From Collimonas arenae (GTDB lineage Bacteria > Pseudomonadota > Gammaproteobacteria > Burkholderiales > Burkholderiaceae_D), in NCBI RefSeq assembly GCF_001584165.1, contig NZ_CP013233.1, positions 3,604,620-3,668,619 of the forward strand: a stretch of DNA of 64,000 nucleotides. Direction: 5' to 3'. Under the pieces are notes generated by a model. That model was not told where the DNA came from. It saw nothing but the letters and a program-made list of their open reading frames with translations, and did not search any database. The position numbers and the translations under genes were made by a program. This document shows, piece after piece, positions 41,504 through 43,960 of this stretch (the first letter of the stretch is position 1; each line of letters opens with the position of its first letter).

Positions 41504-42529
41504 ATGAGTTTCCAGATAACTGTTCAGCCAAGTGGCCGCATATTTAGTTGCGACGAAGGCGAGACCATTCTCAACGCCGCAATACGCGCCGGCGTCGGCC
41601 TGCCCTACGGCTGCAAGAACGGCGCTTGCAGTTCGTGCAAGGGCAAGCTGGTGGACGGCAGCATTACCCATGGCGCGCATCAGGAAAAAGCCCTGCCGGT
41701 GAAGGAAGAGGAACTCGGTTTCGCCCTGTTTTGCTGCGCTACGCCGCATTCAGATGTCACCATCGAAGCGCGCGAAGTCGCCGGCGTCGGCGAATTCCCG
41801 GTGCGCAAGATGCCAACCCGCGTCGCCAAGATCGAAAAAGTCGCCGACGACGTCATCGTGCTGTCGCTGCAATTGCCCGCCAATGAACGCCTGCAATACC
41901 TGGCCGGCCAATACGTGGAATTCATGCTGCGCGACGGCAAACGCCGCAGCTACAGCATGGCCAACGCGCCTTACAAGGACGATTACCTGACCCTGCATAT
42001 CCGCCACATGCCCGGCGGCCTGTTTACCGACCAGGTATTCGGCAGCATGAAAGAACGCGACATCCTGCGCCTGGAAGGGCCGCTCGGCACTTTCTTCCTG
42101 CGCGAAGACTCTGACAAGCCGATGGTGCTGCTGGCTTCCGGCACCGGCTTCGCGCCGATCAAGGCGCTGGTCGAACAAGTTATCCATACCGAATCTCAGC
42201 GGCCGATCACCCTGTACTGGGGCGGCCGCCGCCCGCAAGACCTGTACATGATGGCCTTGTGCGAAGAGTGGGCCGCCACGCTGCCGAACTTCAAGTTCGT
42301 GCCGGTGATTTCGCATGCCCAGCCAGAGGATCAATGGCAAGGCCGCACCGGTTTCGTACATCAGGCGGTGATTGACGACCTGCCTGACCTGTCTGCCTAC
42401 CAGGTCTATGCTTGCGGCGCGCCGATCGTAGTGGAGTCTGCACAGCGCGATTTCGTCGCCCTGTGTAAACTGCCGGCCGAAGAGTTTTATGCCGATTCGT
42501 TTACTTCGGAGGCGGATCTGGCTCAGTAA
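41504..42529 (+). CDS. CDP-6-deoxy-delta-3,4-glucoseen reductase-like iron-sulfur flavoprotein
   Basis: A 341-residue fusion of a plant-type [2Fe-2S] ferredoxin (residues 1-90, ligands CKNGACSSCKG and a later Cys) with an FAD/NAD(P)H ferredoxin reductase: FAD motif RRSYSMANAP near 148 and NAD site LASGTGFAPIKAL near 210. Homologues are annotated as AscD-like CDP-6-deoxy reductase, but in Burkholderiales the gene is widespread outside sugar clusters, so it is probably a general electron-transfer partner of an unknown oxygenase or reductase. Confidence 0.87.
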   Translation: MSFQITVQPSGRIFSCDEGETILNAAIRAGVGLPYGCKNGACSSCKGKLVDGSITHGAHQEKALPVKEEELGFALFCCATPHSDVTIEAREVAGVGEFPVRKMPTRVAKIEKVADDVIVLSLQLPANERLQYLAGQYVEFMLRDGKRRSYSMANAPYKDDYLTLHIRHMPGGLFTDQVFGSMKERDILRLEGPLGTFFLREDSDKPMVLLASGTGFAPIKALVEQVIHTESQRPITLYWGGRRPQDLYMMALCEEWAATLPNFKFVPVISHAQPEDQWQGRTGFVHQAVIDDLPDLSAYQVYACGAPIVVESAQRDFVALCKLPAEEFYADSFTSEADLAQ

Positions 42530-42572
42530 GAGCCTAGATGGGAACGTGTGACAACAACGACGCAAATATTTT

Positions 42573-42601
42573 TTGACGCACCACACAAAAGGTCCTAATA
42601 T
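42573..42601 (+). promoter_or_regulatory. Sigma-70 promoter of the argD leader
   Basis: TTGACG (42573-42578) and TAATAT (42596-42601) are separated by 17 bases. Transcription should start at about 42608-42609, which is the A of a short ORF's ATG. Confidence 0.65.
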
Positions 42602-42608
42602 TTGTGCC

Positions 42609-42677
42609 ATGAACATGATCAAGACATTGTTGCGACGCCATAGCCCATTGCCATTGCCAGGTAAGCCGTGCGTGTGA
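42609..42677 (+). CDS. Putative leaderless leader peptide upstream of argD
   Basis: A 22-codon ORF, MNMIKTLLRRHSPLPLPGKP then CV and stop. Its ATG falls at the predicted transcription start, so the mRNA would be leaderless. Adjacent Arg codons CGA-CGC (42633-42638) precede a Pro/Leu repeat, and a strong terminator hairpin begins about 20 bases after the stop, in front of argD. This is the arrangement of a transcription attenuator; arginine sensing is inferred because argD makes an arginine precursor. An antiterminator was not identified by eye. Confidence 0.45.
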   Translation: MNMIKTLLRRHSPLPLPGKPCV

Positions 42678-42693
42678 CCGTTGTCTGATCACG

Positions 42694-42724
42694 AAGCCAC
42701 AGGCGATGCCTGTGGTTTTTTTTT
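42694..42724 (+). terminator. Terminator/attenuator before argD
   Basis: Eight-base G/C-rich stem CCACAGGC (42697-42704) with GCCTGTGG (42708-42715), a three-base loop and nine T. It lies on the argD strand 22 bases before the argD start codon, downstream of a promoter and a short ORF, so it should stop argD transcription unless relieved. Confidence 0.8.
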
Positions 42725-42745
42725 GCCCTTTTTTGGAGTAACGAT

Positions 42746-43960
42746 ATGGAGCACAGCGTGAAATTCAGCGAATACCCGGTCAACGACCTGATGTACATCA
42801 CCAATCGCCCGCCGCTGGTGTTTGTCGAGGGCGACGGCATGTGGATGACAGATCACACCGGCAAGCGTTACCTCGACTATCTGCAGGGCTGGGCCGTCAA
42901 TGCCCTGGGCCATTCGCCGCAGTGCATCCAGGATGCGCTGGTTGCGCAATCCAAGAAAATCATCAATCCATCGCCGGCTTTCTACAATGCGCCGTCGATC
43001 GAACTGGCTAACCTGCTGACCGCCAACTCCTGCTTCGACCGCGTGTTCTTTACCAACAGCGGCGCCGAAGCCAACGAAGGCGCGATCAAGCTGGCGCGCA
43101 AATGGGGCAAGAAGAATCCAAACAAAGCCGGCCAGAACCGCTTTGAAATCATCACCTTCAACCACAGCTTCCACGGCCGCACTTTAGCCACGATGTCGGC
43201 CAGCGGCAAGCCGGGCTGGGACACCATTTTTGCACCGCAAGTACCGGGCTTCCCGAAAGCAGAACTGAACGACCTGGCCAGCGTCGAAAACCTGATCAAC
43301 GACAAGACCGTGGCAGTCATGCTGGAACCGGTTCAAGGCGAAAGCGGCGTGATCCCGGCAACCCGCGAATTCATGCAAGCCTTGCGCGAACTGACCAAGA
43401 AGCACGGCATCCTGCTGATCGTCGACGAAGTGCAATCCGGCATGGGCCGTACCGGTGAACTGTTCGCTTACCAACTGTCGGGCATCGAGCCGGACATCAT
43501 GACCCTCGGCAAAGGCATCGGCGGTGGCGTACCGCTGGCGGCCTTGCTGGCGCGCGAAGAGATCGCGGTGTTCGAAGCCGGCGATCAAGGCGGCACCTAC
43601 AATGGCAATCCGCTGATGACTGCGGTTGGCGTGGCTGTCATCAAGACCTTGCTGGAGCCGGGCTTCCTGCAATCGGTCAAGGACAAGGGCGCCTACCTGA
43701 GCAGCGAATTGTTGAAACTTACTGCCAAGCACGGACTCGAAGGTGAGCGCGGCGAGGGCTTGTTGCGCGCGCTGAAACTGGGCAAGGATATTGGACCGCA
43801 AATCGTCGATATCGCGCGCGATCTGAATCCGGTCGGCTTGCTGCTGAACTCGCCGCGTCCCAACCTGCTGCGTTTCATGCCGTCGCTGAATGTAACGACT
43901 GCCGAAATCGATCAGATGATTGCGATGCTGTCGGATGTGCTGACCCAACTGGAAAAGTAA
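42746..43960 (+). CDS. argD: Acetylornithine/N-succinyldiaminopimelate-type aminotransferase
   Basis: A 404-residue class III PLP aminotransferase. Visible motifs are [51 protein letters not shown] and [13 protein letters not shown] with the PLP-binding Lys. It is closest to acetylornithine transaminases, which act in arginine and lysine synthesis. GGAG lies seven bases before the ATG. The preceding leader peptide and terminator suggest attenuation control. A neighbouring class III enzyme for another amine donor cannot be excluded. Confidence 0.88.

Follow-up and report, generated by a model that had tools for sequence, protein, structure and literature searches.

A ribosome-mediated transcription attenuator very probably lies upstream of argD in Collimonas arenae and would tie the gene to the supply of arginine. 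This conclusion is drawn from the layout of the element, its conservation, the alternative pairings of its RNA and the switch that they predict. Attenuation had been proposed in a sequence-only reading of the locus, and it is well supported by a conserved ORF, spacing and hairpin before argD, by an antiterminator in the consensus fold and by a three-state fold. The decisive evidence against a chance arrangement is that the same layout is conserved before argD in other genomes. The window referred to below is the 64,000-nt stretch of DNA analysed here, and its host genome is a single contig of 4.72 Mb.

Organization of the argD Upstream Region

Direct reading of the window confirmed the promoter and the 22-codon ORF with tandem Arg codons and a Pro/Leu run that had been described from the sequence alone (Table 1). 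The leader ATG, at 42609, lies 7 nt past the -10 box, and transcription is predicted to start at or beside the A of this codon. A third Arg position, next to the tandem pair, is occupied by His in the window (CGA-CGC-CAT). Region 2 is a near-copy of the terminator 3' arm, one base short. Between the leader ORF and the structural gene lies a predicted intrinsic terminator; the sequence-only reading had the hairpin right and placed it about 20 bases past the leader stop, a distance that is in fact 15 nt. A GGAG precedes the argD ATG at 42746, and 68 nt separate the end of the leader stop from the start of argD. The ArgD protein is 93–95% identical to its nearest named relatives, from Collimonas.

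Table 1. Coordinates of the argD leader element and its gene in the window
Feature	Position	Strand	Details
Sigma-70-type promoter	42573..42601	+	-35 TTGACG at 42573-42578, spacer 17 nt, -10 TAATAT at 42596-42601
Leader peptide ORF MNMIKTLLRRHSPLPLPGKPCV, predicted leaderless	42609..42677	+	22 codons, TGA at 42675-42677
Control codons CGA CGC (Arg-Arg)	42633..42638	+	First codon CGA in 106/106 elements
Region 2, putative antiterminator strand GCCGTGC	42665..42671	+	Conservation peak; consensus-fold partner of 42696-42704
Region 3, terminator 5' arm, doubling as predicted antiterminator partner strand	42696..42704	+	
Predicted intrinsic terminator, hairpin 42693-42719 and T run	42693..42724	+	12 pairs, loop of 3
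argD, acetylornithine transaminase (NF002985 / PRK03715)	42746..43960	+	741.8 bits, cut-off 568

A promoter scan returned two overlapping sites in this region of the window against 0.4 in shuffles, and none of 200 dinucleotide shuffles folded as well as the 137-nt leader (z -3.8). The terminator by itself was unremarkable, with one found against 1.2 in shuffles. None of 4227 Rfam families reached its gathering score in the window; the interval 42400-42900 held three chance-level matches, each below its gathering score. No Pfam family matched the window peptide and no NCBIfam family matched four leader peptides, comparisons in which peptides this short may slip past the filters.

Two further observations concern the surroundings of the element. 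In the window (42573-42595) and in many other Oxalobacteraceae, the -35 box and spacer form a near-palindrome by eye, TTTTGACGCA-NTGCGCAAAA, which may act as an operator in addition to the attenuator. Immediately upstream of argD, the window carries a ferredoxin-type reductase gene (41504-42529), whose end can also be seen ahead of argD in some relatives lacking the leader.

Conservation of the Leader Element

For the fold statistics, 45 of 56 elements of the first set were kept; nine Undibacterium-type loci without a matching -35 box were left out, as were L047 and L050, which have another form of terminator. In the set used for the three-state test, removal of duplicates left 87 elements, and a second set was reduced from 23 to 19, for a total of 106. 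L159 (terminator only) was excluded, and L169 stands outside the 106.

The distance from the -10 box to the ATG was 6–7 nt in 104 of the 106 elements. The outliers were L150, with 8 nt, and L153, with 13 nt, where the model had chosen a second ATG; taken from the first ATG, this sequence is L019 and has the normal spacing. The spacing behind the leaderless start that was originally proposed for the window alone recurs across the elements, and the 5' end of the mRNA is predicted from it. The best -35 boxes were TTGACG (76 elements), TTTACA (12) and TTGACA (12).

The Arg codons keep to the frame of this ATG. The distance from ATG to CGA was 18, 24, 27, 30, 33, 39 or 63 nt, a multiple of three in 106/106, and the distance from ATG to the terminator arm kept no frame (the three phases held 65, 22 and 19 elements). 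CGA was the first Arg codon in every element, and the second and third codons varied at the wobble base, a result to be read with the search patterns, which required CGACG (CGACGY for the named loci), and with the parser of the 87 elements, which required an in-frame CGA. None of the rows given to this parser failed to parse, and 59 model matches as well as 22 loci of family f31, taken before the pattern was applied, had not been selected by pattern. Runs of one, two, three and four Arg codons occurred in 1, 18, 61 and 26 elements, respectively; thus, at least two consecutive Arg codons were present in 105/106 and three or four in 87/106, L155 being the element with a single Arg codon. The element would accordingly offer a translatable ORF, 14 to 37 codons long, with tandem codons for the amino acid of the pathway. 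At these lengths the leader ORFs are easily missed by gene finders.

Among 40 elements of equal length, conservation was highest at the start codon and the Arg codons, and again at the GCCGTGC close to the stop and in the terminator arm; the peptide between these peaks was variable. The terminator 5' arm CCACAGG was identical in 40/40. Such a pattern would be expected of an element in which codons and RNA pairing count and the peptide is of no importance.

Antiterminator Pairing and the Predicted Switch

An unguided consensus fold was computed from 21 aligned segments, which run from approximately the start of the RNA left free by an Arg-stalled ribosome to just before the terminator 3' arm. 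This fold paired GCCGUGC with the terminator 5' arm through 7 pairs, one of which showed compensatory changes (GC 14, GU 4, AU 2, unpaired 1). Across 36 sequences, 97.2% of cells were standard pairs, compared with 14–36% when the partner was slid by 1–3 columns. Covariation had been named at the outset as a check on the antiterminator; the pairing was found, and its covariation is weak because both strands hardly vary, with one of the 7 pairs changed on both sides in 2 of the 36 sequences. The covariation score was reached by 21 of 500 shuffles and the paired percentage by 25 of 500. The putative antiterminator would exclude the terminator, the same arm serving in both. In the window, an alternative helix of CAUUGCC with GGCGAUG likewise sequesters the arm. 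A consensus fold of the Burkholderiaceae elements was set aside as evidence, since three of its five rows included part of the 3' arm.

To represent the positions of the ribosome, each leader was folded in three states and the fraction of the terminator arm paired upstream was recorded. Over the 87 elements this fraction was 0.63 with a ribosome at the Arg codons, 0.21 with no ribosome and 0.08 with one at the stop. Shuffled leaders gave 0.43 in the stalled state and 0.47 without a ribosome; the difference between stalled and none was 0.43 in the real elements and -0.04 in the shuffles. Ranked among 40 shuffles each, 63 of the 87 elements reached 0.05 or less and 24 fell short of 5%, ranks that are not independent tests because the sequences are related. 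The window gave 0.57, 0.00 and 0.00 (rank 0.025). For 19 further elements (18 from f31 and L167), whose region 2 and arm sequences differ, the values were 0.65, 0.32 and 0.27, with a difference of 0.32 against -0.02 in shuffles and a rank of 0.05 or less in 9/19.

A scan of the stall site over 45 elements placed the peak of sequestration from one codon before to three codons after the first Arg codon, with a fall beyond about four codons past it. Shuffling confined to the part of the leader past the Arg codons gave a weak signal: 8 of 45 elements reached 5% and the window did not, 55 of 100 shuffles doing as well. The whole-leader three-state test was therefore used. Swapping leaders and arms between elements gave z -5.2 over all 87, a value confounded by relatedness; within the main Oxalobacteraceae type the test fell short of significance (z -1.0), and within the Undibacterium type the effect was mild (z -2.2).

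In this model, the position of the ribosome would decide which structure forms, with exceptions. The three-state fold gave no switch for L005 and L015, and for L140, L148 and L155 the stalled and ribosome-free states differed slightly or not at all. Many Burkholderiaceae have their leader stop ahead of region 2, so that a ribosome at this stop covers the region only in part.

Distribution and Linkage to argD

Among 80 argD loci of named genomes, the pattern search found the layout before argD in 53 (54 of 81 including the window). Two further argD loci with the element, L019 and L046, were recovered beyond the pattern search. The rest comprised two loci cut off within argD and 23 without the element by these patterns. 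For nine of these (L009, L012, L022, L023, L032, L053, L055, L058, L061), a terminator scan of up to 700 nt upstream of argD found none; the other 14 negatives rest on the pattern search and are mainly Rhodocyclaceae, Alcaligenaceae and unplaced MAGs.

A first covariance model (A1, R1), built from 35 elements, identified one true copy in the host genome, at argD (E 4.7e-25). Of the seven other model matches, the next, at E 5.4e-4, is a terminator look-alike; three of the seven were viewed as alignments and rejected as extra copies, being look-alikes of this kind. Of 195 genomes in the window's family, 111 matched the model at E <= 0.01, and 91, at 92 places, did so at E <= 1.6e-12. We read 60 places, namely 59 of the 92 strong matches and one weak match, and argD followed in the same direction within the 600 nt taken at each in 58 of the 60. 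Of the two exceptions, the weak match is spurious and the other is a genuine element in genome G037, placed before a GNAT acetyltransferase gene.

A second covariance model (A2, R2) was positive for the element in family f31 (Burkholderiaceae), in 74 of 120 genomes at E <= 1.1e-7; some leader sequences of this family are identical to those at the Caballeronia and Pandoraea loci. argD and an Arg ORF with leaderless spacing were present at each of the 22 f31 loci read. Outside f1 and f31 this model matched 25 places, two of which were genuine leaders before argD; families f14 (G371/L167) and f35 (G313/L169) contributed one each. Of the other 23 matches, stretches were fetched for 18; argD was absent from all 18, and we take them to be chance. 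The order has at least four families with the element, which is common in two of them. The conservation of ORF and hairpin before argD in relatives, which the sequence-only reading had put forward as a check on itself, was found in the Oxalobacteraceae, the Burkholderiaceae and two more families.

The absence of the element was examined by an ArgD search in 20 genomes of the window's family, 19 drawn from the 84 without a model match and G037. In 19 of the 20, G037 included, the best ArgD relative was only 34–44% identical, which we take to be another transaminase; the value for G037 was 41%. The sole exception was G004, with an argD 80% identical and yet without the element, and several argD orthologs lack it. 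The element therefore appears to be mostly missing where this argD ortholog is missing, with some true losses.

Several individual loci are of interest in their own right. The G037 element (L217:3060-3701) retains an intact promoter, Arg codons and terminator before the GNAT acetyltransferase gene, near an lpdA-like gene. Genome G046 carries two different copies of leader and argD on two contigs (L142, L143), the product of a duplication or of a mixed assembly. In the Undibacterium loci L039 and L049, the leader stop lies 237 and 324 nt from argD, farther than in relatives, and the leader is kept; the spacing to argD therefore seems free.

Such variation in distance, up to 324 nt in one Undibacterium, together with the copy before a GNAT gene, could also be read as the mark of an independent small RNA or peptide gene that has a terminator of its own and lies by chance upstream of an argD with another promoter. 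In Sinorhizobium, the available text of one study describes a trp leader peptide acting in trans (PMC7298713). We nevertheless consider a stand-alone gene very unlikely. The tight linkage to argD, the reading frame, the Arg codons and a three-state fold that is missing in shuffles all speak against it, and 18 of the 19 checked genomes without a model match also lack a close argD, having only the 34–44% relatives.

Arginine as the Probable Signal

The amino acid sensed is most likely arginine and not proline. The sequence-only reading had left both in play; arginine held, as the Arg codons are the invariant part, and proline was rejected as a signal, the L005 leader, for one, having no Pro codon. 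That leader is one of the 13 of 106 that stop at codon 17. A leader that responds to proline or to translation in general, slowing in the Pro/Leu run with the Arg codons incidental, would fit the Pro-Leu run of the window ORF, the Pro codons kept in many Oxalobacteraceae leaders and the slowing at successive Pro codons described in the available part of a Salmonella his leader study (PMC4046918). It is highly improbable here, because the conserved part is the Arg codons and less sequestration is predicted where the Pro codons lie. In addition, the leaders with a stop at codon 17 that were read in the f31/f14 set have only one Pro or Pro-Leu-Pro after the Arg codons, L068 ends in RRRDRP, L005 does without Pro, and the gene itself belongs to arginine synthesis.

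It is scarcely credible that a constitutive terminator merely lowers argD expression above a translated but non-regulatory ORF, or that a protein or metabolite binds the element: a protein site could explain the nearly invariant terminator arm, but such invariance is also expected of an arm that pairs with two partners, region 2 is conserved as the second partner, no Rfam family reached its gathering score and the weak matches were at chance level.

Ribosome-mediated attenuation by arginine would operate in an order where the usual repressor is not recognized. ArgR (PF01316) was absent from the host genome in a search that was positive in 9 of 14 controls, and none of 300 genomes of the order passed the cut-off, with six weak matches. 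Decoding of CGA also appears to be restricted in this host. Locally CGA is rare, accounting for 4 of the 130 Arg codons that seven neighbouring genes contain. All 54 tRNA matches were decoded, and the tRNA-Arg anticodons were CCG, TCT, ACG and CCT, one each, with no TCG. The ACG-anticodon tRNA reads CGA after inosine editing. As no tRNA-Arg has a TCG anticodon, CGA should be readable here only by tRNA-Arg(ACG) after this editing. According to the available text on the Salmonella his leader, Arg-Arg pairs with CGA strongly de-attenuate, and CGA is slower than CGU and CGC (PMC4046918).

These observations suggest a narrower idea, which we regard as possible but rather doubtful. The leader may specifically gauge the decoding of CGA, such that argD follows the charging and inosine editing of the single-copy tRNA-Arg(ACG) and not arginine alone, with leaderless initiation coupling it to conditions that favor 70S starts. 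The response would depend on one tRNA because CGA is read only through A34-edited tRNA-Arg(ACG), by a slow I:A pairing. If this were true, an order free of ArgR would control arginine synthesis at argD by one codon.

Other arg Genes of the Host Genome

A search of 700 nt at argC and at argF, the latter lying just ahead of argG, found no Arg-rich ORF with leaderless promoter spacing and a terminator. Six short frames with RR were listed before argF, with one weak hairpin at the start of the gene. The 200 nt before the argF start (L191) contain a TATAAT-like box, a GC-rich hairpin and a short frame with three Arg codons at its end; the leaderless ATG layout was not seen in this region. Within 100 nt before argC (L190), several copies of an 11-base unit, AACAAGTACGC, stand head to tail. 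They directly precede argC and extend its open frame upstream.

Proposed Mechanism and Its Meaning

The mechanism that we infer, including the mRNA 5' end, leader translation and responsiveness to arginine, would run as follows. RNA polymerase would begin at the ATG of the short ORF, as the promoter spacing indicates, and ribosomes would load on the leaderless message without a Shine-Dalgarno sequence. When charged tRNA-Arg is scarce, the ribosome would pause at the tandem Arg codons, the first of which is always the slow codon CGA. The paused ribosome would leave region 2 (GCCGUGC here) free to pair with the emerging terminator 5' arm, allowing read-through into argD. When arginine is plentiful, the ribosome would reach the stop and cover region 2, so that the terminator forms and transcription ends before argD. 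If no ribosome is present, region 2 would pair back on the region of the Arg codons, and termination would again be favored.

Bacteria without a recognisable ArgR must control arginine synthesis, and the element suggests a concrete, testable mechanism. It would add arginine to the amino acids sensed through an attenuator with an intrinsic terminator. It would also extend to proteobacteria the leaderless sensory ORFs that, to our knowledge, are in print only from mycobacteria. In addition, the element may serve as a natural assay of how bacteria read CGA.

Comparison with Known Systems

The trp, his and leu attenuators of enteric bacteria consist of a leader ORF with tandem cognate codons and competing antiterminator and terminator structures, with the gene directly downstream. 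The argD element resembles these classical attenuators in each of these respects and differs in the arginine that it probably senses, in its predicted leaderless start, in governing argD and in being betaproteobacterial. Proteobacterial attenuators were reportedly surveyed by Vitreschak and colleagues in 2004. In mycobacteria, leaderless polycysteine ORFs are said to attenuate downstream genes, going by the title of Canestrari et al. 2020. To judge from that title, the likeness lies in a leaderless short ORF rich in codons for the sensed amino acid; the argD element has Arg codons and belongs to the Burkholderiales, and it would work alike without being a member of that group. The fungal arginine attenuator peptide shares with the argD element a short upstream peptide tied to arginine synthesis; it is eukaryotic, and its control is exerted on translation by an arginine-responsive nascent peptide. 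The layout of the trp attenuator itself is set out in the available part of one account (PMC1183508).

Arginine is also sensed by orf34 of the speF leader in Salmonella, whose Arg codons 12–13 act by ribosome pausing, as the available text reports (PMC6386406). According to the same text, orf34 has a Shine-Dalgarno sequence and starts at nucleotide 32, its regulation involves Rho, RNase G and mRNA structure, and no intrinsic terminator was found there (PMC6386406). As far as that text goes, the two share a pair of consecutive Arg codons as the arginine sensor. The argD element has leaderless spacing, an intrinsic terminator and argD as its gene, in contrast to orf34, which is Shine-Dalgarno-led and governs ornithine decarboxylase. 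The uORFC-8-2 motif before cysS in Rhodobacterales is a computational attenuator candidate with tandem cognate codons, as described in the accessible part of its source (PMC8632094). Tandem cognate codons are common to both, and uORFC-8-2 concerns cysteine, alphaproteobacteria and a tRNA synthetase gene.

An arginine attenuator before argD or in betaproteobacteria was not found among the matches listed in the open-licence literature, which lacks most subscription journals. The word arginine is absent from the main text of a survey of premature-terminator-based attenuators (PMC2965389). The available text of an Actinobacteria survey reports no conserved RNA structure before the arginine operons of that group (PMC1262725), and a betaproteobacterial carA motif is described, in the accessible part of its source, as an extended hairpin (PMC8632094). 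By analogy, the argD element would work like the trp- and his-type attenuators, and its leaderless feature would be like that of the mycobacterial cysteine attenuators.
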